From assembly GCF_041381155.1 (NCBI RefSeq), contig NC_091144.1, forward strand, positions 35,875,262 to 35,939,261: DNA of 64,000 nt. Direction: 5' to 3'. Positions 23,747 through 61,607 of the stretch are shown here, in pieces (position 1 is the stretch's first letter; every line of letters starts with the position of its first letter). Both the position numbers and the translations under genes were made by a program. This stretch comes from Argopecten irradians (taxonomy: Eukaryota; Mollusca; Bivalvia; Pectinida; Pectinidae). A model generated the notes under the pieces. That model was given only the letters and a program-made list of their open reading frames with translations, was not told the origin of the DNA and made no database searches.

Positions 23747-26141
23747 TAAAATAACAATGCATCGAAATATGTAATACAACATGATAAGTTGGCACAACAT
23801 CAACCAACTGAGAAAAGACAGTAGGGCTCCATATGTCTATGTCCGCCATGATTTGTCTAAAATAGAAACCAATGAACAGGCCGGGACATATGTTCTAGTT
23901 TCCTGTCGTATCCAATGACCTTTGGGCAACACCCCCAGGGGAACGATAAGGGACACACCTTTATAAGACCAGTTTTATATCCACGACAGAGAAATATTTA
24001 CGTGTTATTGTAATAACATGGATTTAAATCCCCAAACATCAGTTTCGTGTATGTGGTAAAATCCTATGGATGAAACGTAATTATCTCGGACATTATATAC
24101 ATACAGTTAGTAATGTCAAAGTTAGGAAACGTCACCGATGACATCTTAGCGGTTTGATCCAGTACAATTTGATAAGACTCTCCATACCCACTATGTATAA
24201 ATGCTTCATTAATTGAAATAGCAGTTATTTGCTGTGGTTATATAAATGCTAACTTAGGCATGGATTCTAATTAATTGTTTCGTATAATTAATTGGTAAGC
24301 GATAATGAGTTTATCAACTCATGGAATATTGTGTAGATCACTAGGTCATGTGCTCACTGGAGCGTAACACGGCTGTCCCCGGAGATGATTAATGTCTCAG
24401 TATATGACATACACTTCCTCTTAACCTTTACCCACGGGATCATGTGAAGGGTTGTAGAATTAATACAACAGTTATGTCCCCTTTTTATCATACACTTAAC
24501 TCATTAACAGCTAAAATGTAAATTTCATTTTATAGACAACTTTATAAATATAAAGTAAACGGAGTTAAATAATACTTAGGATAAATTTTTTAGACTATTT
24601 TATTTTAGTGGTAAGTGATCCGCATTTTGGCTTTTTCCACAATAGGCAAATGCGCATTCATAATATTTCATTGATTATTTCATAATATGTTATGGCGATA
24701 TAACACCTAATCTGAGTGTACCCAGCAAACTCAGCGAATAACATAAAACATATAGTATCTAATATAGATCATATCTTCAAAATTTAAAATTTATTGAGGA
24801 ACCCATTTTCATATAAAATTACGACGCAGTTGTATCAGCCAATCAGAAGCGACAATGTAATTACGTGTATGTCATTTTTGTCCTTTATGGAATAATTAAG
24901 TAATTGTTAGCCAATGAAAATGCTCGTTAAACGCAAAAGTGAATTATTATACTTAAGCTTTCTATGAAATTTGTCATCAGGTAAACGTTCATTAATCGAC
25001 CTTATACAGAAAATAACAGAAAGAGATCTTGGGCAAAATTATGTTCTTAATTAGTAAAAATCATATAATATTAATACATGGAATAAAGTTGTGATATTTC
25101 ATTGCATCAATAAGGTTCGTAAATCTATGATGTAACTAGGAGATATACAACATTAATTAAAGCATAGAACATACCACATTCAGTGAACGAAAGAAAAAAA
25201 AAATGAAATGGCATTTTATAATACTTGTTGGGTCTAGAAGCAATAACTTTAATTAATAGACTAAACTATATTCTATATCTTCAATCATTTATAATCATCG
25301 GCTTACACGAACCACAATAATTTACTTGCTTTAGCAAAACCTAACTTTATCGATATGGCAATAGAGAAGAATTTGATATGTATTTATTTTCTAATTCAAC
25401 AGACAGCTTGCAAATATATAAATACATAAAATATACAAAAGTAGATGATATCACAGTTAGTAAATGAAGTCAATATCAAAGATGCGTAATACAATATACT
25501 TTGATTTTCCTTTAAATAACAACTTTTTATTCCCAGTTTTTCCCACCACAGTTAACATTTTAACAACAATTATCTAAAGAGTTTTTTTTCTTAACTTTCA
25601 AAATCTGTACTTGTTAAAAAGTGAATTATTTTCATCGCAAATCCCCCACTGTTGTCCGTGGCTCTTGTATAATTTACTAAAAATGGCCAGTTTGATGTCT
25701 AAAATTGTTATTTGGCATAAGAAAGCTATAAATAATGTTTATACAAAGTCTCTCTGATTTAGTAATGCCAGAATTTATGCCTTTTTCTTTTTTGCTTTTG
25801 GTAAAATTAATAATTTGAAAATTGGTAACATAACGGACATTGTTTATGTTTCTATGGCAACCACGCGGATGATATTTCATAGTTACGAATGTGAAATAAT
25901 TAACTGTTGACAGATCTACATGCTCTTAATTTTCGTTCAATAAAATTTAACATTCATCGATGATGCATTTGCATTTTTGCCCAATCTGAAATTGGAGAAA
26001 TTCTGATAATGATTCATATATGTGTGTAACATGTGTATATTAGAATGTTTCTTTATTTATCGATTTATGTTTTCTGTAAATTCTTCAATATTGGAAGAAA
26101 TAAAGGTCAATGATAATTGATCTATTATTTTCTTATTTCAG
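20585..26141. other. Long gene-poor AT-rich stretch
   Basis: I see no coding exon. There is a complete MITE at 21,810-22,131, poly-A tracts near 23,101-23,128 and 23,712-23,742, a C-rich tract near 23,286-23,303, and otherwise unique AT-rich sequence. The promoter and any 5' non-coding exon of the secreted-protein gene at 26,142 probably lie here but could not be fixed. Confidence 0.5.
21810..22131. repeat. 322-bp MITE with 27-bp inverted ends and 7-8 bp target duplication
   Basis: The left end 'cttgaccgaatcatctgtct' and right end 'agacagacgattcggtcaag' are inverted copies over about 27 bp. Both flanks read (G)AACAAAC, a 7-8 bp target duplication that would suit the hAT superfamily. There is no transposase. 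Confidence 0.75.
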
Positions 26142-29100
26142 ATCATATCATCATGAGACTAACCAATTCATCTGTGGAATGGCTGGCGCTAGCAACATTT
26201 GTCTTAGTTGTTGTCGAGGCCCAAAGTAAGTTCTTAGTTTGCTTTGGTAGTTTTTTGGTTTCCTCTACTTACTGTAGAAACACATTTTTGGCGATACATT
26301 ATTTTAACGCTTATATCGAATTTCGAATTAAAACATCATTGCGACTATTGTTCTTAAAATAAATAATTTCCGGAGATTAGGATTGTTCTGTTATCTATAT
26401 ATACTGCAGTATTTACATTATAACTTTTTAGATAATATTCGGAAATTAGAATTGTTCTATTATATATTCCCATTCTTAATAAAAAAGAATATCCGGAAAT
26501 GTTCAAATTGTCAGTAATATTGCCATTGCAGACAACTGATTATCTATTTCGTTTTCAGGGGAATGTATAAGATACCTCAGTAGCGCGGAGGGATTATTTA
26601 AGAAACCGTTCTATATGAAGTCCCATTATCAAAATTCCATAATTACCAATGTGACATTGATTGAGCGACATTCCTACTACAAATGTGAACCGGCTGAGGA
26701 TAAATACGGAATCGATACTAGTGGCACGGAATGGTGGGTGTTTAAGGGGTGTGGAGGGGTGTTTGACATTGAGGAATGTACCGAGGGGAGAACACTCCAA
26801 CTCAAAGTCGAGGAGGAAATACCAACCGAACAGAGAGATATGGAAAAGAAAACCATGCAAGAATTCGGAGTTTTACAGGTAGGTGTCTTTACATCTTTTG
26901 TTTAGATCTGCTGCCACGAGACCTAGAAATGTGTCTATATACTAAATAATTTGAAATTAAATTGATGGCAATCACATATTCAAAAAGGTAACAATGTCGG
27001 TTAAAGAATCGTCCGCATATTCTTGAGAATTTACTACGAGAAAGTGTTCATTATTTTTTCAATGTCACTGGTCACATTATGTTGTATAAATACATAACTT
27101 CATAGAATAAAAAAAAATTACAGGAATAGATATGGTGGTTTTGCTACATGTTAGATCTGGAATTGGAATAGATTCATTCGTATTAATTTGCTATTAGGTA
27201 GAAAATGCTACAATTATAGCAAAAACTGTGTGGATTGTAACAATTGTCAATGGGTACATGTACATCCTAATTCCCAGCTTGGTCTTTTTCCGAAAAACGA
27301 TAACTGTCACAATTTTGTCGTGTAGTGCAAGACAGTTTGAAGGAATTATTCAGAATAATGTAACAAATAGGTTTTGATTTTACATGACAGTTTGTTTTCT
27401 AACAGAATGCCATGATAAACTATCATATATTGCGGTGCATCATTGACTTAATCAAACATCAATACATATCAACATTTTTATTTGTAATCTGTAAACAAAT
27501 TTTGCATGATGATTATTATTATATGTGCAATTGTAACACTGATGGTATTGTTGCTGTGTTTAACTCTCAGCCTTGATGTATGGTAAGCTTCGGGTCCGGA
27601 TCATCCCATATCCGTAGTTCAAATAACATTGACATGGGCGATAATATGTATTTTATATGTAACCATGCAACTTTTTCAATAATCATGAATCTTTTTCCTT
27701 TGATCTCCCTATTTCATTAAAATATATCTATCCACTAACATTGGTAACCGTTATCTTTTCATTATTCCATTCATCCATTCCTTTGACCTCCCTATTCCAA
27801 TAAGAAATACCTATTCACTAACATTGGTAACCGTTACTTGCATTCCATTATATATATTTACCAAATTCAGGTAAATTGAACTAATTAATCAAATAATCAT
27901 TTCTCATTACATTATATTTCTTGTTTATCATTACTTTTCTACTAAGAAGATCGTCTCGAAAATGAATTTGCCCAAACTGTACGATTTACGTCTTTATCCC
28001 TTACTTATATTAGATATATATATATACCAGGCAAGCATAAAAACCTGTCTCTTTTCTATATCAACATAACATTCATGTAATTGCTTCTTGTATATGTTAT
28101 ACGTGGATCCAAATTGTATGTCATTTCAAATTGTACTCCGACTTTACAGTTTATTTGATAGTAAAACATACCCTGCTAAATGTTGTAATAAAATCGTACA
28201 CAATTTCAGACAAGCGCTGAGATAAAGGAATTCGGTAAAAAATGCGTATAATTTTGTAGTTAGTGAATATAATTGTTTCGTTCTAGGACAATTCAACTTA
28301 AAAAGTGTTTTCTTGACTTCTTAATGTTGAAATATATCATAGCCTTGGAAAACCACATGCTTCTTTCTGTAATTTAATACTAGTTTATAGATTAGTATTT
28401 CTGCGAATATTTTCCATATTTATCCATTTAGTGAATGTGTTAGAACAATAACATACTAACAAGGTCAAGGTTCTTATTCAACTGAAATTCGCCAATGAGT
28501 TCAGGTTATTGTAAAAGTTAAGATTCCTTACTAAAATGTCTGAAATTCACAAAATGTTGCTTTATATATAGCTGAGATGCTTTATTATATAGCTAGGAGA
28601 AAAACCACCATGACTTGAATCACAATTCCAAAGTGATCTTATTGGTGTCAAGTCAATGGCCCAGGAAAACACTCCTTGAATAATAAATAAAATCGAATTA
28701 GTTGCTAATTTATATGGATTATTTTTAGATGCCCATTGTTTTTCATTTTTTTAATACCTGAAAGAACAAAAATATCAAATGCAGCTGAAAAATTTGAAGT
28801 CTTTCTAATGCCGGACATAGCTTGAATGTATATGGTTTGGTAGTTTCTGTAGATATAATATGTATACTTAGAATACTGTACATTATAAATATCTTGAAAT
28901 TAGAGTAGACGATATTCAATTAGAGAATTTAGTTTTAAAGTATTACTATATATTCTTTAAAGAGATGGGTCATCCTGTATCAATTACTAATAACTTAACG
29001 AATGATTTTTACATACAATGCATACCATTGGATTAATATCTTGTTATACTGATTTGATAATACATTAATGAACTTTGTAAATATTATAATAATCACTGAA

Positions 29101-45400: not shown

Positions 45401-48400
45401 ATTTTTTTGATGATGTGATATATTTCAACATTATGTTTGTAACGATTTATCTGTCATTACATTGCAATAAAACTTTTTAAGATACCATAAAATCATTTAT
45501 AAATATACTATAAACCAATTTATTTAAGCATTGGTGTCACTATTTTTAACTACATCGAGTATAAAAGAAATTTTGTTTGCAAACTGTGTGAATCCGCGTA
45601 CGATTCTCACAAAAGTTTGCAAACAAAATTCATTTTATAACCCGATAAAAAAGTTTTATCAATGCTTATTATTAATTTTTCAGACTACTTGATAATCTAA
45701 AATACGTTTATTCGTATGATTTCATCGATTTTCCAATGGATTTTTTTTCTAAATCAGTACGCAACGTGACGTCTCTATTGTGACGTCAGGATGACGTCGG
45801 GTTTTAGCGACATCCTCAGATATTTTAAAAAGAATCTGCTAATCAGAAAGTCGGATTTAGTATGAAAAAATATTGTCGCCTGCGACTTAATTTCGCGGAT
45901 TTTGTGGCCGATACAAATTCTGCAAAAATAAATCACCGCAAAAAGTTTTGACTATAAGTTCATGTTTCATATACGCAATTTATAGAATAAGTAGGGCAAA
46001 ATATGTATCGGTTGCGAAATTAAATCGTCGCGAAAATAAGTTGGTTAACAGTATACTATTTTTGACTTTTCTACCACTTGAATGCAGAAAATCGTCTTTG
46101 AAAATCTTAAATCTTTAATGTAATGAGCTCATGCATTACTCATAAGTATATATATATAATATTCTGTGTATGATAGCAATGTTTGCATGTATAACAGTCA
46201 ACTAACCTCCTATATCTGATATGACAGCTCGACTAACTATATCGTACATATCCAAGGCGATATATGTAAGTTCCTGAAACATAAAATACAGAATGTGTTC
46301 AATAACGTATGAATGTGAACCATTAAAGCTTTAAATGTAGAAAAATGATACGCATTTGTTATACTGAAAAATATGTTTTAATCTGTGACATGACGCACTT
46401 ACAGTGTATATATAGTCTATATATGCCGGTGTATTTATTTATATTGAGGTTGCTGTAAAACAGAGATTAAAAATACAATTTATACCTCTGAAGGTTCTAT
46501 TTTACATTGCATTGTACTGTCTATACACAAAAGGGTTCGCATGAATTGCCACAAAATAAAGTTTACACAAACATTATGTGTGTAAGCCGTGTACAATGCT
46601 AGTTATTGAGCTTTACAAAGGGGGATAACCTGTACTCACACCGGCCGAATTGTTGACGTAAGAAGTTAAATCATCCAAGTTATCCGCTATAGTGACATCA
46701 GCGTAATCAAGCGCTTTAGTAAACCGGTCGTTTGTAGTGTATACACAAGCTGCAGAAGCCCTAAAAATAAAACATTATTTAAATGATCACTACCATTCCA
46801 AAACAGCTTTTAATGTTTTGAATGTAAAACGAGATTGTTAATTTTGTAGAGTTGAAAACGTTTTAGGTTACCGTCAATACTACACTTATTATCACCTTCT
46901 AAACAATTCAATTATAATTTTAAAAAAATCAAAACGCGGGTCGATTTATGTTTCCCGCTGTCGTCATAATCACCGCACGTTAGTTGACTAACACTGCTGT
47001 ATACGGCAAAACAGCCATGGATCTTTACTGTAAACATATATAAATTACACAGGGAAACTTTTGTTTGGTGTTGTAACCTCATCTTATGTCATCGATATAT
47101 ATTTTCTTATGTTATGATTGTTTTTAAGAAAGTTTTGTCTCGGATGTAGTGGGCTTTTAATAAATCTTATTTTGGAGGTGCCAATAGCTTGAATTTATAA
47201 TCAAGAGTATAACTTACAATAAACAAACAGATAGAAGGAAGAGCGCCTGCGCAAATCCCATTCTTTTGCAACCTTCATTTTCGTCATAAACCTGGAACAA
47301 TTTACAAATATCGTTTGATGCAAGCATTATCTATTATCATTTCTTTTGTTAATTATAAAAAACCACCAAGCAAATACATATGATTTATCTTGCAAATCAT
47401 TGTATCTTGCTTTTAAATGTCCAAATTGAATGCTTGAATTATGAAAAATAATTATATACCAAAAATAGTATGTCTCTTTGGATATCAATCTAGACACATT
47501 ATTTGATTTACATATCACGTATTTTAAAAAAAATAAACGGAGAAATTTTGATTGCAACTTTATACACATACTGTTTTGTCTATTAATAAATAATTAAATA
47601 TTGCATTCTTTTTCATATTTTCTTTCTGTAAAAAGATCAGAGAATGACTCGAGAACCCGATGTAAACCACTACATTGATTCAAACCATTTGGATTTAATC
47701 ATAGCCCCATGAGTTGCAAAATGATGACGTCAATGCTTAAAACGAAAATGTACATACCTGTTTCAGATCGCCCCCACAGTTACCGCAACATCGGCAACAG
47801 CAGAAACAGCAGCCACACAGAGGCATGAATATAACGTAGAGTAATCCGAGGACAAAACAGATACCAAAGCCCATGGCATAGTTAACGAGCTGTGGAGAGA
47901 TAAAATAATCTGTTTCATCATAAGTCATTAAAACATGTAAAAGGAGACTCAATATAATGATGTAATCGTTAGTTACAGGATAGTGCTTTAGTCCTTTCAT
48001 TCTGGTGCTTTTTCATGGAATTTCAGTCCGCCATTAGTTTTTTTTGGTATCGGCGATTAATTTTCATTCTCCTTGAACACATTTTATTCTCTTTTTTTAC
48101 GTTACAAATAGTAAGCATTGCTCAAAGTTCATCAGATTCACTACCGGAAATACCTTTTTTACAACAGTTAATATTGTACATTATTTAATGATACAGATGC
48201 AGCGCGAAAAGCGCTAAAATAAAACTGCATCTAAAATAAGTGCTTTTACAGACACAAGAACTTAAGTCATACTAATTGAATAGTTGCACATTACCGATAC
48301 TGCAATGAGCAGCAAGCTTATGACGTATACAACCGAGCAAAAATTAAGATGTATTTATGGAAAAACAGAAATAAAGCGCAATATTTTGGGAGCCTATCTT

Positions 48401-49956: not shown

Positions 49957-52527
49957 GTTGTTAATTAATCAAAGTATACAAGATTAAACATATTTCACAG
50001 GTTTTTGTAATGAAAGAACACTTCACTTTCCCGAAGGAATATCTCACTCTTTGATATAAATACAATTTGAAATCACAGACGCAATAGGAATCTATACTCC
50101 AATGTGTTCGATGTGAATATTCAAGACACAATCCAAGCACATAACTGTTTCACATGTTGCATTGCTCTTCCAATACTTGGTAATAAGTCCATTTGTAATA
50201 TGTTTATCAATCTGTTATATCAATAAATGATAAACATTCCCATAGTCGTGGACAGTTAAGGTCACTAGAAAAACAGGTAAATATATCGAGGCATCAGAAG
50301 GGAAAACACATTAATAAATTAATGGACGAACTGAAATGAACATATAGACTTTGAAATATTATAATTCTTGATTGTTGACCGATACCCCATTCATCCTTAG
50401 GTTAAATCGGCTTTACACGGTAGATCATGTAAAATTAGGTTAGTCTTTACACAAACAGTAAATAGTCGGTGTAAACTAATCCGGATTAGTTTGCCTCTAT
50501 TGTAAGAGTTAAATACATGTCATGGTCTTTGATCGCTTCGTCTGTGTTGAACTTTATTTAATTTGAAGTCGTGTTGTATGGATGATAGTTACTTTTTTAT
50601 TATACTAAATTGAAATAAGGATTCACAAAGAAAGTATGTTGAAGATCAAATTGAGTAAAATGGTGGTAGTGACACGGTAATGCTTATCTTTGAGTTCGTC
50701 ACATAATGTACAATGGAGTGTGTTCATAACAAACTAAATAATCATTTCATACATATGGGGTATCAAGCAATCTTTCATGTTATTTGCAATTTTAGGAAAC
50801 GAGTATTCCCAGAAAATGTAATAGTGCACCCAATCAACTGTAAATTCAAGTGACCTTCATGACTTAATGGATAAGTCGACAAAGAATACATTCCTGGAGG
50901 AGACTACATATGTGTAGACAACTTTCCTTTTCGACGACAGCAATAAACTTTGGACTAAAGACTTCTCTTTATATTTAAAAGGTACACTACGTGTCACGGT
51001 GAAGCTAAAAGAGTTCAGCTAATTCCCCAACCGTGTCACATTATTTGCTTTTGCTAATATTTTATTTCCATTTGTAATGGCTTTACGGCTTGTTATGATT
51101 TGAGTGTGTACAGTGCCGGATATAACCTTTCAGTATGGCTATTTGATATTTTGGTTTTCCTGCTTTGTCGAAAGATGTTCTCCCTTGTCATTAGGTAAGC
51201 TTTATGTGAACCATGTATAGAAATCTTTTAACAATTAACATATCCTCTAGGTTAGTTTCGTATTCGAATGTAGTATTTCGTAACAAAACGTCATAACAAA
51301 AAGCCTTTGTCTTTCTAGATGTCAACTTGTGATGTACGCGGAATCAAGATAACCGTGTGTATTACTCTAGACCCGTGTGAAAACTTATAATACCCATGCC
51401 CACACAAGACAAAGGCTATTGTTTTGGTGGCTGCGAAATCGTATTTCCGTAATATGATAGACCTTATTATTTGTTCCTCAGTTAATAATAAATTACAATT
51501 AAAAATATAAATATGAATAAATAAATATGAACAAAATAATATGTATTTAATCGGCAGAGTAACGTTATCTTATATTTTTTATATATTATTTACGTTGCTA
51601 TTTTCGCGACAATGCCGTCAATGATTGTCATATAATAAATGTATTTGTATATACTATATCAGTAGTTTGAAACGAATCGCACTTTGAGTTAAATATCAAT
51701 GATAGCGTGATTTCGATAAAATAGTATTTTTCATTGATAATAGTTTTATGACATAAATACAAAATTATGAAATGGTTTTGGTAAAATCAAACTATATGCA
51801 TTCAGTATACTGTCATCAATCAGAAAGCGTTGCAAGACGCAAGTCTTTTGTTTCATTACTCGACGTTGATATCAAAGAGTCTACAAAAGTTTGTTTGGTC
51901 AAAACAACTGATAATGTCAAAATAATGATTGGGATTTGTGAAAGACCTGAAAATGAGTGTCCAATCCCATTATTGGCATTTAACAAATAAATTAGAATGA
52001 AAATAAAATAAAGTTTAAACGTAATTATTTTGTTCCGGCACCTTCTTCTTCCGTTTGACATATCTTTGCCATTGTTTAAATTTGGACTCACTAAACTTTG
52101 AAATAATTGCGACTTATAGATAATGAAGTTTGTGAACTCAGGAAACGATATTTCTTATTGTGGCAGAGCATATTGTCATGTTATGTTTATATTTCCGGAA
52201 AAATAATAGTGATGATTGAATTTTACAGTCGGGTCGATTTTCCTACCTATCTTTATTGATAATACAAACGATCTTATGGTATCGGTAATCCAAGTCTAGA
52301 TAGAAATCCAATATACTCAAACTTAAAAAGTGAGGGTAGGGATACCCATGATTGATAACCGTTAGACGATTTATGATGCTTTCGTAATTTTATCTAATGT
52401 CTACAAATGATGATTTTCAAAAATCTTTCCATGGAAAACCAAAAAATTTTCTAATAAATACAGTACTTTTCATAGAGTGGTATTACAGTTAACTTCTAAA
52501 TTGACCATTGCAACAATAAGATTTGAT
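49957..52527. other. Intergenic region between prominin (minus) and the cytokine candidate (plus)
   Basis: The two genes are divergent, so both promoters must lie here. I see no clear TATA box. Open frames at 51,772-51,990 and, antisense, 51,816-52,091 show no recognised domain. Otherwise AT-rich unique sequence. Confidence 0.5.
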
Positions 52528-55011
52528 ATGGCTGTTCTACGTAAGTAACGATAATGCAATATACTCAACACTATTCGTTGGCTATATTTTTTTTAAATAC
52601 ACAACAAGTACTAAGTTAACGTAGGAGGAAAGATTCTTACGTCTTCGTTCATGATTATAAGACTGTAGATATAAAATTAATCTTTGTCGCACAAAACTTT
52701 CAAAGGGGGGCTTCATACTGGATTAGTTTTTGTCTTACAAAGCTTTCAAAGATGTGCTTTAGTGTGGTGGCTGATTTGTACCATTTTCGCTTTTTATATT
52801 GTTGGAAAAACGCAAAAATGCGAAAATCCAATGTTACCTTTTCGCTTTTTATATTGAATTAATTTTTGTCGTACAAAACTTTCAAAGATGGTATTTAGAT
52901 AGTAAATTAATCATTGTCTCATGAAACATGAATATCTAAGACCGGCTTTAGATATTGAATAAATCTTTTTCTGAGAAAAGTTTCAAAGACGGGGTTAAGA
53001 TATAAATTATAATTAATATTTGTCGTACAAAACTTGACCTGCAGGGCTCTTTACCTTCATCGCTTTGGTTGCGTATGTGACTTCCACCTTGCCATGTGTA
53101 GTTCGCCTGACAGAGACCGTTAGGATTGACACTTCTTGCTCCTGTAATAGAGAGGGTTACAGATCCCCTCCGACCTGTTCTATCGACTCCCTGAATTGGA
53201 AAATAAGAAACGCCGAAAGACAACTCACACACGCAATCGACGCATTTGTAAGTTTTGAAATGGTTTTTCTTCTACGACAATGTTTATGTATAAAAAATAT
53301 TTTGCTTATGAATCCCAAAAACTAAATTTATTGAATAAAATAATAAGATGAAAGAAATGCTCTAAAATGCGACCATAAATTGTTCGAAAGAAAACTAACG
53401 CACGCAATCGATGATGTTGTAAGCTTTTTTTCGGCAACGAGTTTATTGAGCAGAATTTCTTTTGAATCCCGTAAAATTATTCGTTAAAAATGGCAAGATG
53501 AAAGAAATACTTTCAAAAGGCAATAAGAAATTGTCAGAAATTGATCCTACACTTTTAACTTTTCAGTTAACCCCAATTGCCGGTCAATTGGACTGTTCTG
53601 GTCAGCATAGACTAGCTCTGGTGTCCAGTGACACTTCCGATCTGGTAAGTTATTCATCTTCACGGAATTTGTTTTTGTTTGAAAAAGTTTTTTGATTCAT
53701 AACATCTTTTCATACTATTGGAAAATACATTTCTGCACTCTCCAGCTAATATTATGTACGTATTTTGAGGGAATACATCGTAAGGAATAAAAGTTCGGTA
53801 TTAGGAAAGTATGACTATAGAACATTGAGTAGTAAAAAGATATACACACTTTTATTATAGAAAATATTAATTGAAAATCATTACGAAGTCATTTTGAGTA
53901 AGAGATTCTTCGACATGTAGGTTGATGTTATAAAAAAATCCAATTTTTTTGTTAATTTCGTATGAGTTTTTATGAAACTCATCTCAAAGTTTTGATTCTT
54001 GCTCGCCAATGTTCGCAAAACAAAAACGTCTTAGACTTGTTTCATAAAATCTCATACGAAATGAACGTTTATTTAGGACCCTACAAATAGTTTATGGGTA
54101 ACACATGGTATGTTACCTGACTAACTATATAAATGTTAATGAAGTAATTTCGCCTATTGACCGGTCAATAGTTTTACTGTTGACCGGGGCGGAACGTTTG
54201 CATGCGTTTATTGTTGACCTCATAATTAATTGTTGACGTCATAATCACCGGCGCCTGAGACTATATGAATGAGATTAGATACAGGTGTAATGAGCTCAAT
54301 AGCTGAGCACAAAAAAAAAAAAAATCAGCGGCGCTCCAGATCGCCCCAAATACCGGTATTCTTTCGGTGAAAGTCTTTCTCACCAGAAGCTCAGTGATTA
54401 GTTTAAGATTTCGGTTCAGGTAACAAAACAGTTGTTTCATGCCTTTTCAGTCAACAGTCAAACCTCTTTCCCGAGGTGTTGGGACCAAACCGATGAACTG
54501 TTTTCCGGGTTCATCGGGTTAGTCCCAACACCTCAGAAAAAGAGTTTTGACTGCTGATTGAAAAGGCATGAAACAACTGTATACTATTTTATACCTTATT
54601 TTAGTTTCACTGTCTGTGTATTCTGCTAATTTGTTAAAGAGTAAAAAATACAATAATTTGCGAGTGTTATTTTCAAATTAACATTTTGTCTATTTTCAGA
54701 TATCGTCTCTCCAAAATGGAATACAGATGCTGACACAGGTTGCTTTGAACATATCGCTCAGCAACTGCTCTTCTACCGGTCAGTGCTCCTCTGCTGTCCA
54801 TCAGACGCTTGGTGACGTCATATGTGAGATGAAGCGCATGCTCATGTTCGTCGATTATGACGTCAATATTTTTAGCGCAACGATGACTCATGCTTTGATG
54901 GAGGACAGGACAGATCGCGGGTTATTCACGTGCGCTAGTCTTGAGACAGGTCGCGAAGTCCTTAGATTTTTGGAAATGGACATAAACCGAATTTTTAGAG
55001 AATTACAGTGA
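52528..55011 (+). CDS. Candidate long-chain helical cytokine, secreted (complete, 4 coding exons, 201 aa)
   Basis: Exons 52528-52540, 53045-53247, 53567-53644 and 54700-55011, all GT/AG. Intron phases are 1, 0, 0, with TGA at 55,009-55,011. Residues 1-21 make a strong signal peptide (MAVLRLFTFIALVAY...). The mature part is about 180 aa with Cys at 36, 38, 49, 82, 121, 127, 140 and 176, and sequons NIS (115) and NCS (120). Four helix-prone stretches are visible: about 49-80, 94-118, 128-152 and 174-200, the last ending LRFLEMDINRIFREL. In vertebrate long-chain class I cytokines the first intron is phase 1 after a tiny signal-peptide exon (13 nt in EPO) and later introns are phase 0 (from memory). 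Length, topology and exon plan fit; no sequence motif names a family. If right, it would act extracellularly on a gp130/Domeless-like receptor and JAK/STAT, which is inference. The exon-2 acceptor has a weak pyrimidine tract. The gene model is firmer than the family call. Confidence 0.75.
52676..53040 (+). repeat. About 50-bp degenerate tandem repeat filling intron 1 of the cytokine candidate
   Basis: Units built on 'ttgtcgtacaaaactttcaa' recur at about 52,676, 52,722, 52,855, 52,904, 52,953 and 53,003. A different AT-rich insert lies at about 52,770-52,850. The last unit runs into the splice acceptor of exon 2. Confidence 0.75.
53956..54066. repeat. Short foldback element (cytokine candidate intron 3)
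   Basis: 'atttcgtatgagtttttatg' is answered by 'cataaaatctcatacgaaat' about 60 bp later. Confidence 0.6.
54428..54580. repeat. Near-perfect 153-bp hairpin element (cytokine candidate intron 3)
   Basis: Arms of about 70 bp, from 'acagttgtttcatgcctttt' to 'aaaaggcatgaaacaactgt', meet at a loop of only about 10 bases near 54,503. A transcript of this intron would fold into a long double strand. Confidence 0.85.
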
Positions 55012-55215: not shown

Positions 55216-55221
55216 AATAAA
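55216..55221 (+). promoter_or_regulatory. Polyadenylation signal AATAAA
   Basis: Consensus hexamer 205 bp after the stop of the cytokine candidate, on its strand. Confidence 0.6.
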
Positions 55222-55377
55222 CATCTAGTTATATTACGTGTTTCTTTCCTTTCTAACAATTTGTTAAATATGACAATTTATCTGTTTTATGACATATAAA
55301 GAATTGTTAAATATGACCATTTATCATAACACATATATATAATTGATATTATTAGATAGGTATAAATAGGTAAAGAG

Positions 55378-55490
55378 TCTCATAAAACGCGCACCTCGCA
55401 CTTCACTCACGCTAAACACAGCATGCATTGGAGGCCGTCCTTACATAACCCTGGCTGTTAATAGGACGTTAATTTATCAAACAAACAAAG
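55378..55490 (+). repeat. AAAC-tailed SINE-like family, tail fragment
   Basis: Contains 'ggaggccgtccttacataac', 'ctggctgttaataggacg' and the tail 'atcaaacaaacaaa'. It is inverted with respect to the copy starting at about 55,650, so the two face each other. Confidence 0.65.
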
Positions 55491-55649
55491 TCGATGGCCT
55501 AAAACAACAACTCTTTCCTTTGCTCAATATAAAGGAATCTCGAAAGAAGGATGAAGTACTAGATTAAGACTAAGAGGCAAACAAGCGAGATATAATTCGG
55601 GGTATATATGGAACTTGAACAACATCAGCAGGGTTACCGAGCTCAGATT

Positions 55650-56180
55650 GTAAGGTCAGTCTCTTTGTTTGTTTGATTAATTAACGTCTGGACTAGTCCT
55701 ATTAACAGCTATGGTCATGTAAGGACGGCCTCCCATGTATGCTGTGTGTTGCGTGTATGTTATGCGAGGTGCATGTTTTAGGAGACTGCGGCATATTCAT
55801 GAAATGTCTTCTTGTATAGTGGAACTGTTGCCCTTTTTATATTGTTTTATCATTGAAGCATGCCGCCGAATGCACCAAGCAACACATCCCAGCCGGTCAC
55901 ATTATACTGACAACGGGCGAACCAGTCGTCCCACTCCCTATATGCTGAGCGGTATGCAGGAGCAGAAACTGCCACTTTTATAGACTTTGGTGTGTCTCGG
56001 CCAGGGGATAGAACCCAGAGCCTTCCTCACACGGGCGAACGCTCAACTCAAGGCCAAAAGTAAGGCGGTGCCAAGGGAGGCATTAGGAAACATAAAGTCA
56101 GTTAGGAAGAAGAGAAAAGAAAATATCCTAAATTAAGTCGTCTTTTACGATTATATAATAGGTGCAGCAAGTAAAATTCT
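55650..56180 (-). repeat. AAAC-tailed SINE-like family, long copy
   Basis: The minus-strand 3' end is the AAAC tail ('gtttgtttgattaattaac' on plus). The body contains 'cggtcacattatactgacaa', 'ccacttttatagact' and 'gatagaacccagagcc', the last resembling a pol III B box. The same body is found at 60,160-60,502 (inverted) and in part at 18,455-18,790. Confidence 0.65.
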
Positions 56181-59389: not shown

Positions 59390-59398
59390 GATATAAAG
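59390..59398 (+). promoter_or_regulatory. Possible TATA box of the PAN/fibrinogen-like gene
   Basis: GATATAAAG lies 51 bp upstream of the chosen ATG, a reasonable distance for a short 5' UTR. It is a weak call in AT-rich DNA. Confidence 0.3.
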
Positions 59399-59448
59399 AC
59401 GTCCAGATATTTGTACTATTACATATGTACATCTTTATATATCAGACA

Positions 59449-61607
59449 ATGAAATTGCAGTTCTTCGTTTTGGTATGTACAGCGGCCATCGCATCCACCA
59501 TGGTATACGACATTAACTTATTCAGTAGAATACACCACGTTATACCGACCAATTTTGATCCAGTCACTTCGAATACAGAAATCCAAAGTCGAGGAATGTG
59601 TGCCATGAGATGTAAACAAGAATATTTGTGTTTGTCCTTCTCCTACACGGAGACGGACAGAAGATGTGACACCTACGCCAAGGCACTTGTCGAGGAGGAG
59701 AATGCTGACTTGTCCAATTCTACTATGTACTTCACGAAGGATATCGGTAAGCGTGTTTGTCTAATTTTAACTAGGCCTTCAAATGCATGATTAAAATCGT
59801 TTCCTACAGCTTGGAATAATTACTGCGTATTTTTGCGATTCAGCATTTGTTTTATTGAAAATATATCAAGTGGGCTTTTTTGTTGTTATTATTTTGGCAG
59901 ACGTAGCGCTCCTTAGGATCTGACGACTGAAATCAAAATTTATTTATCGTGTTCATGATTCATTAGCAGTGAATACTTTGTGTAAATATCACAAATACTT
60001 TTTATTTACAATCCAATATGTTTTAAGTTATCAACAAAGTGGCGAGAAATCCAGGATAGTTTTCCGCTGTACAATTAAAGAGCAGAATGAAATATCGAGT
60101 ATTCTAATTGGTCAATTCTAGTATGTGAAATCCCATAAACACCATACATAAACCTGGGGCGGGATCGCTGCATATTGTCTGGGGTCCACCCGGTCGGTCG
60201 CTATTACATCATAGTTTATCTTTTCTCTTCTTCCTAACTGACACACCAAAGTCTATAAAAGTGGTACTTTCTGCTATCGCTTAGCGCTCAGCATACATGA
60301 AGTGGGACGGCTGGTTCGCCCGTTGTCAGTATAATATGACCGGGTGGGGTGTGTTGCTTGGTGTCTTCGGCGCCATATACCGCAGTATATACACGCACCT
60401 CGCACAACATACACGCAACACACCACATACATGGGAGGCCGTCCTTAAATGACCATAGCTGTTTATATGACGTTAATTAATCAAACAAACAAACAAACTA
60501 TCTAATGATAGTTTGAAATTATTTGCATTGCTATTCTCATGGGAAAATCATTATCGAAGAAAATTTTATTTAAAATTTTGCTGTTTTATAAAGTTATATT
60601 TACATATTCACTGCAATTCCACTATGTAACCTTACCAAATGCAGTTGGCATTCATCAGTGCACGAACTGTCAGACGTCAAAATTGTTGTGTCTAATTATA
60701 GATTTACAGAAAATTTTATTTTTATAAAGACTTGTCTATATTGTAATTTGATGTGCTTTTTAGTTCAAGGTAACAACGAAGAGGCAAGTCAAGCAGCCCA
60801 TGCTGAAAGCACTACGGTTGCCGTAACAGAAGGAATTGGTGTTCCATGGTCATGCGACATAGATAACTCATCATCCTGGATCGTGAGTATAATTTATTAA
60901 TGAAAAAAACCTGCTATTTTTGTTCTTTTTATTTCATCAGAACAATCGGCTATCTTTATTTTAAGGGAAATTAGAATAAATAAAACGCAGTATTATTGGA
61001 AGACGAGAGATGAGACTCCTGATGTTACATTGAACAACTATCGATCTAAGAAATAAGTAACTGCCATTGGTAAAATATTATCGTCGATTAATCCCATCTC
61101 CAGGTGATTATGACGTCACAAAAATCGCTTCAAATAATAGCGTCATAATCACCAGATGGTGATCGACTAATCGACGGTAAAATGTACTTTACCCGCGTCA
61201 TTTTTGGGATCTCGAAACCGCCGTATTTTTATTTTGTACATGTAACAGAATGATTTAAAATTAAGGAAAAACTGAAATTATATTTTAACAGTAGCATGTA
61301 GTTGTCAAAGAACAGAGAAAATTTAATTCTAAACATTTCCGAAATAGATGTTTCCATTCTTCTCATGTACTTTGATCTCTTTGAATTTTCTTTTTTTTTA
61401 ATATTGTGTAGGTAATTGTGTTTTTTCATAATTATATATCCTTATGTAGTCATTAATGTCGATCTACATGTATTCCATCTAAAACGTCTATGATATTTGA
61501 ATTCCCGTAGGTTATACAGAGACGAACAAACGGGAATCTGAATTTCACCCGCAGCTGGGCAGATTACAAGTCTGGATTTGGTAATCTAGAAAAGGATTGT
61601 TGGATAG
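59449..61607 (+). CDS. Secreted PAN/apple plus fibrinogen-like protein, 5' part (3 exons, open at 3' end)
   Basis: Exons 59449-59746, 60764-60882 and 61511-61607, GT/AG borders, phases 1, 0 and 1 (the last still open). The N-terminus MKLQFFVLVCTAAIAS is a signal peptide. An in-frame ATG 24 nt earlier (59,425) is the alternative start. Residues about 45-100 form a PAN/apple-like module with Cys51, Cys55, Cys61 and Cys73 (CAMRCKQEYLCLSFSY). Exon 2 encodes a short Ser/Thr/Ala linker and the start of a fibrinogen-like domain (GVPWSCDIDNSSSWI). Exon 3 gives its hallmark VIQRRTNGNLNFTRSWADYK and GFG. The fibrinogen C-terminal half (Ca-binding and recognition subdomain) must be encoded further right, and I find no such exon before 64,000. 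Fibrinogen-related proteins in molluscs are secreted recognition molecules or lectins. That role here is inference from domain type. The usual N-terminal Cys of the fibrinogen domain is not evident. Confidence 0.8.
60160..60502 (+). repeat. AAAC-tailed SINE-like family, copy with full tail
   Basis: Contains 'ggctggttcgcccgttgtca', 'gaccgggtggggtgtgttgc', 'ggaggccgtccttaaatgac' and ends in four AAAC units at about 60,484-60,500. It lies in intron 1 of the fibrinogen-like gene. This is a repeat I associate with bivalves. Confidence 0.7.
61080..61178. repeat. Short hairpin element in intron 2 of the fibrinogen-like gene
   Basis: 'tcgtcgattaatcccatctc' and 'caggtgattatgacg' are answered by 'cgtcataatcacc' and 'gatcgactaatcgacgg', leaving a loop of roughly 30 bp. 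Confidence 0.7.

Follow-up and report, generated by a model that had tools for sequence, protein, structure and literature searches.

Does the genome of a bivalve mollusc encode a ligand of the class I helical cytokine type, and could a small four-exon gene of Argopecten irradians be the gene for it? The question is raised by a stretch of 64,000 nucleotides of contig NC_091144.1 (assembly GCF_041381155.1, forward strand, 35,875,262 to 35,939,261), called here the window, in which an initial annotation had proposed an undescribed invertebrate long-chain class I cytokine, feeding JAK/STAT through a gp130/Domeless-type receptor. A 2026 survey records JAK, STAT and a homologue of the IL-6 receptor in Mollusca, places IL-6 itself in vertebrates only, gives Upd for insects and a lectin-type ligand for crustaceans, and suggests that the molluscan module responds to different ligands (PMC13203501). 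In the literature on molluscan and invertebrate ligands, which included few subscription journals, no molluscan class I ligand is named in the titles and abstract openings among the matches listed.

The gene and its surroundings

The gene consists of four coding exons whose ends were placed by exact motif, the model being known here from the genomic sequence alone. Its parts are as follows.

52528–52540, + strand: coding exon 1, 13 nt; the ATG and the start of the putative signal peptide (MAVL and one base); ends in phase 1
52541–53044, + strand: intron 1, 504 nt, GTAAGT...CAG
53045–53247, + strand: coding exon 2, 203 nt; the rest of the putative signal peptide, an N-terminal extension with Cys22, 36, 38 and 49, and most of predicted helix A; ends in phase 0
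53248–53566, + strand: intron 2, 319 nt, GTAAGT...CAG; contains a second, tandem copy of the exon 2 end
53567–53644, + strand: coding exon 3, 78 nt; residues 73–98, with the predicted A-B link and Cys82; ends in phase 0
53645–54699, + strand: intron 3, 1055 nt, GTAAGT...CAG
54700–55011, + strand: coding exon 4, 312 nt including the stop; most of predicted helix B, predicted helices C and D, the sequons N115 and N120, and Cys121, 127, 140 and 176
55216–55221, + strand: candidate poly(A) signal AATAAA, about 200 nt 3′ of the stop

Joining these exons gives 606 nt, that is, 201 codons and a stop, with introns of phases 1, 0 and 0, and in this way the coordinates, the length of the protein, the phases and the 13-nt first coding exon originally described were all reproduced. 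The donors of the three introns are GTAAGT in every case, a hexamer of which the + strand of the 64-kb window has 15 copies, counting these three, and the acceptors finish in CAG; the GC content is 0.45–0.50 in the exons and 0.29–0.34 in the introns. The acceptor of intron 1 is weak, with pyrimidines at 7 of 14 positions, and for this reason an earlier scan, which demanded a stricter pyrimidine tract and at least 180 codons, missed the real gene; among 60 simulated windows the same scan picked up a single locus by chance, of 186 aa. A gene-finder that asked for a frame of 195 codons or more, starting with ATG and a hydrophobic N-terminus and interrupted by three introns with GTAAGT donors and CAG acceptors, returned a single chain from the real window, namely the candidate gene, and none from both strands of 300 order-4 Markov windows, a figure to be read as descriptive and not as a clean test, because these settings were picked with the gene already in view. 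All this makes a convincing case for a four-exon gene for a small secreted protein.

The duplication noted in intron 2 is a tandem one of about 170 nt (53214–53384 and 53385–53540) that takes in the last 34 nt of exon 2, the donor and the start of the intron; in the second unit the donor is GTAAGC, and this copy of the exon end is probably unused. Between the two copies, 27 of the 34 coding columns are identical and 88 of the 115 intron columns (one-sided P 0.46), so that the duplicate was dropped as evidence of selection on the end of exon 2, coding and intron columns being alike. Intron 3 holds a hairpin-forming inverted repeat (54428–54580) with arms of 42 nt that are 93% complementary, perhaps, as a guess, a small mobile element; another inverted repeat, with arms of 92 nt and 84% complementarity, occupies 55376–55787, just 3′ of the gene.

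Upstream of the start codon there are two palindromic TTCN(2,4)GAA sites, TTCCGGAA at 52193 and TTCCATGGAA at 52427, which are not used here as promoter evidence, their number being near that of chance (computed at about one per kilobase). The 1 kb upstream has no strict NF-kB or ISRE motif, and a relaxed kB pattern matches once on the + strand and three times on the − strand; no ATTTA element occurs before the first poly(A) signal.

As for the neighbouring loci, exons of a prominin (CD133) gene, a kind of gene found in many kinds of animal, lie on the − strand between 36885 and 49968, with Pfam Prominin matches at E≤1 in five of the six frames scanned; one of these frames (47737–48012, E 8.3e-15) is above the curated cut-off. 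An open frame on the + strand (59392–59790) begins with a hydrophobic stretch and carries a PAN domain (PF00024, E 2.1e-06), and a possible secreted two-exon gene, also on the + strand (26117–26905, with GTAAGT at 26226), comprises two frames with no Pfam match at E≤10. On the − strand, 63420–63638 matches DUF5641 (PF18701, E 2.2e-06), a domain that occurs in retroelement polyproteins.

The protein and its predicted fold

The protein has the signal-peptide-like start attributed to it: near the N-terminus the ten-residue mean hydropathy is 2.39, and a manual reading of the −3/−1 rule places the best cleavage after S18 (V16/S18), leaving a mature chain of about 183 residues. Since the N-terminus is hydrophobic, the protein would be secreted. 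The two N-glycosylation sequons reported at the outset are present at N115 and N120. The count of eight mature cysteines has to be corrected to nine (22, 36, 38, 49, 82, 121, 127, 140 and 176), eight being obtained only if counting begins at residue 23. Four of these precede predicted helix A, one is in the A-B link, three are in or near the B-C link and helix C, and the ninth is where helix D begins; the sole tryptophan, W56, lies outside helix D.

With regard to relatives, Pfam gave none for the whole protein or for the exon-2 and exon-4 frames, the only matches being weak and meaningless ones over the signal peptide (E 0.58 and 0.097), and hence no profile of another secreted family was encountered there. 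Neither the whole protein nor exon 4 matched any PDB sequence at E≤10. Viral contigs, searched with the whole protein, and prokaryote genome contigs, searched with exon 4, gave no relative either, with single-sequence queries of a kind that catches close relatives only and in collections that are poor places for the relatives of an animal gene. Within the 64-kb window tblastn found no paralogue, only the gene itself and chance matches with E of at least 4.7.

AlphaFold2 was run without an alignment on the spliced mature chain and, separately, on exon 4. For the spliced chain it places helices at 51–79, 94–119, 129–165 and 174–200, with low confidence (mean pLDDT 42.7, pTM 0.31) and with A-B, B-C and C-D links of 14, 9 and 8 residues, without any long C-D crossover; such links would equally suit a simple up-down bundle. 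For exon 4 alone, also with low confidence (mean pLDDT 58.0), the helices are 100–120, 129–148, 153–165, 182–190 and 193–200, separated by a short B-C link of 8 residues (121–128) and by a long C-D stretch (149–181) with the short helix 153–165 inside it. The C-D crossover therefore differs between the two models, 149–181 as against eight residues, and both are too weak for topology; the chain is predicted, at low confidence, to be helical. The relation of exons to helices first put forward, with exon 2 for helix A, exon 3 for the A-B loop and exon 4 for helices B to D, holds roughly: exon 2, which ends at residue 72, inside predicted helix A (51–79), covers most of that helix, and C and D lie wholly in exon 4 along with the greater part of B, but in the spliced model exon 3 also carries the last residues of A and the first of B, with introns 2 and 3 falling within the ends of helices A and B.

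The hydrophobic moments, compared with residue shuffles (P values per segment, uncorrected for several tests), exceed those of the shuffles in helix A (51–72, P 0.006; 51–79, P 0.014), helix C (129–150, P 0.03) and helix D (179–200, P 0.003). Helix B (99–120) has no clear excess (P 0.07), and the amphipathicity of 150–167 is no higher than in the shuffles (P 0.88). Four helix-prone segments had originally been seen, and AlphaFold2 predicts four helices, at low confidence, of which A, C and D are amphipathic and B is unclear.

In the PDB, Foldseek returned 111 matches with the spliced model and 70 with the exon-4 model, and in the viral library 148, none at E≤0.001 with these poor query models; in the best 50 of each, there is no natural cytokine among the named entries, several viral matches carrying no name. 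The best PDB TM-score by query length in the best 50 of the 111 was 0.50, for the designed two-domain bundle 7jh6; 6y07, a designed granulopoietic protein, is also among the PDB matches listed for the spliced model, and designed IL-2/IL-15 and IL-4 mimetics are among those listed for the exon-4 model. Marseillevirus LCMAC103 supplied the top viral match, in the best 50 of 148, with an uncharacterized protein (E 0.15, probability 0.82, TM 0.44). None of these matches was given any weight, and in view of the poor models the outcome of the search is taken as uninformative. Neither a link to a known cytokine fold nor a confident contrary fold was obtained.

Likeness to known helical cytokines

Long-chain class I cytokine genes have a tiny phase-1 first coding exon followed by phase-0 introns, and the gene described here, with its 13-nt phase-1 first coding exon and its phase-0 introns, has the same plan. 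The EPO gene has five exons, with coding lengths of 13, 146, 87, 180 and 156 nt that sum to 193 aa and phases 1-0-0-0; IL-6, also with five exons and 212 aa, has coding exons of 19, 191, 114, 147 and 168 nt, which sum to that length, and the same phases. The candidate gene shares with both the start of the gene (13 nt in EPO, 19 nt in IL-6), the phases 1-0-0 and a similar total length, but is without their last phase-0 intron, as if the last two exons had been fused; its last exon, at 312 nt, comes close to the combined 315 nt of the last two exons of IL-6. No sequence match to EPO or IL-6 was found among PDB sequences, and the phase pattern 1-0-0 alone is not rare, at about 7% as computed from phase frequencies.

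Some marks of particular families are absent from the 201 residues, among them the PROSITE signature of IL-6, C-x(9)-C-x(6)-G-L-x(2)-[FY]-x(3)-L, and FxxK, the site-3 motif which at the start of helix D characterizes the LIFR-binding cytokines LIF, OSM and CNTF. As these two and the helix-D tryptophan are all missing, the protein is not to be filed as IL-6 or as LIF/OSM, although it could still work like them.

The likeness to LIF and OSM is of another kind, beginning with the tiny phase-1 first coding exon and the four helices, here predicted. LIF, with coding exons of 19, 179 and 411 nt that sum to 202 aa, has six cysteines as against nine in the candidate, which has one coding exon more. 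In OSM, Cys49 belongs to the A-B loop and Cys167 to helix D. LIF and OSM are described as having an N-terminal extension before helix A which is disulfide-tied to helix C, and this may explain why neither needs an alpha receptor (PMC10022904); in OSM, a Cys49-Cys167 bond and a free Cys80 are reported (PMC8355150). In the candidate, cysteines occupy comparable places, namely the N-terminal extension, the B-C/helix C region, the A-B link and the beginning of predicted helix D, a parallel which is our own and has to be read with the many pairings that nine cysteines allow in mind. Apart from the missing site-3 motif, there is no detectable sequence similarity to LIF or OSM in the PDB sequences.

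An up-up-down-down bundle requires long links, and in IL-6 a short helix lies within the C-D loop (PMC7378365). The exon-4 model would fit this requirement, and its helix 153–165, at low confidence, would be like the C-D loop helix of IL-6, but the spliced model would not fit it. Among invertebrates, the Unpaired ligands of Domeless in Drosophila (Upd1–3) are, by description only, likewise secreted and helical; recombinant Upd3 is reported as mainly alpha-helical by circular dichroism (PMC7378365), and a 2017 survey identified homologues of Upd2 in Drosophila species only (PMC5385356). CgIFNLP of the oyster Crassostrea gigas, also compared by description only, is another invertebrate protein said to resemble a helical cytokine, but it differs in its likeness to class II cytokines, as stated in a review (PMC9756803), and in its size, as it runs at about 15 kDa (PMC8218723).

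What the protein could be

The best explanation, to which we would give a probability of about 0.4, is that the gene encodes a helical cytokine of the JAK/STAT type, about 183 residues long, which would be secreted and would carry N-glycans and disulfide bonds; the label of cytokine is a good guess, short of a result. It is favored by (i) an intact spliced frame with GTAAGT donors, the sole such chain in the window and one with no counterpart in the 300 simulations; (ii) the gene plan of EPO and IL-6, in which phase-0 introns follow a first exon that is tiny and ends in phase 1; (iii) four predicted helices, of which A, C and D are amphipathic, together with the short B-C link and long C-D stretch of the exon-4 model; (iv) and finally, cysteines placed as in LIF and OSM. 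Against it count the lack of a relative in Pfam, PDB sequences, viral contigs and prokaryote genomes, the low scores of the spliced model (pLDDT 42.7, pTM 0.31), its links of 14, 9 and 8 residues and its introns 2 and 3 within helix ends, and the best 50 of 111 PDB Foldseek matches, where none is significant or a natural cytokine. To these are added the absent IL-6 signature and FxxK, the position of W56 outside helix D, the nine cysteines where LIF has six, the frequency of the phase pattern, the unclear amphipathicity of helix B, and the lack of ATTTA before the first poly(A) signal. In other words, the gene plan and the placement of the cysteines would point to a class I cytokine, the link lengths only partly so. 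From the first proposal of an invertebrate long-chain class I cytokine, the gene, the secretion signal, the exon plan and the predicted helicity have stood, but no search by sequence or structure has tied the protein to a cytokine.

If the protein is such a cytokine, its helices A to D would pack up-up-down-down, the N-terminal extension (Cys22–49) would be disulfide-tied to the B-C/helix C region (Cys121, 127 and 140) and the A-B link (Cys82) would be bonded to the start of helix D (Cys176), both as in LIF and OSM. Through the A/C face and through the end formed by helix D and the A-B loop, it would bridge two class I receptor chains of the gp130/Domeless-like kind, and this bridging would activate JAK and STAT; were the likeness to LIF and OSM real, a separate alpha receptor would not be needed.

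The strongest of the other explanations, which we hold to be nearly as probable as the cytokine, is a lineage-specific secreted, cysteine-rich helical protein with some other job, such as gamete recognition, defence, pheromone or matrix, which would act by binding a non-cytokine partner and would have its cytokine-like exon plan by chance. Fast-evolving secreted helical proteins do occur in marine invertebrates, as in the case of abalone lysin, and a protein of that sort would agree with the lack of relatives in all four collections, with nine cysteines and a cysteine-rich N-terminus, with links of similar length in the spliced model, and with structure matches among which no natural cytokine is listed. 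What it leaves to coincidence is the joint match to class I genes, in which the cysteine placement comes together with a 13-nt phase-1 first exon and with two introns of phase 0 close to the A-B link.

A four-helix growth factor of another receptor class, whether class II (interferon- or IL-10-like) or a CSF-1/SCF-like protein that binds a receptor tyrosine kinase, would suit the helical prediction and the cysteine-rich chain too, but class II and CSF-1-type genes have exon phases other than 1-0-0, and we hold it to be decidedly unlikely. The oyster CgIFNLP, likened to class II helical cytokines (PMC9756803), lends it some precedent, although at about 15 kDa that protein, compared by description only, is smaller than expected for a mature chain of 183 residues (PMC8218723). 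It is highly improbable, lastly, that the exons join up by chance, or survive in a decayed state, and that no such protein is made: the weak first acceptor and the coding columns of the exon 2 end, not better conserved than the rest in the intron 2 copy (P 0.46), would be in keeping with this, but the three GTAAGT donors, the intact frame of 201 codons, the GC contrast between exons and introns and the 0 of 300 simulated windows speak against it.

Returning to the class I cytokine, its fullest form would be a true ligand of the gp130 type in an invertebrate outside both insects and chordates, which would have kept the ancestral 1-0-0 plan and a tethered N-terminus like that of LIF and OSM, with ligand, receptor, JAK and STAT together before the split of protostomes and deuterostomes; in this form we consider it doubtful. 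If the gene does encode such a ligand, a receptor module without a known ligand would become directly testable. If this were true, the origin of class I cytokines would shift back to early bilaterians, and a search by gene plan could find ligands in other phyla where sequence similarity fails.
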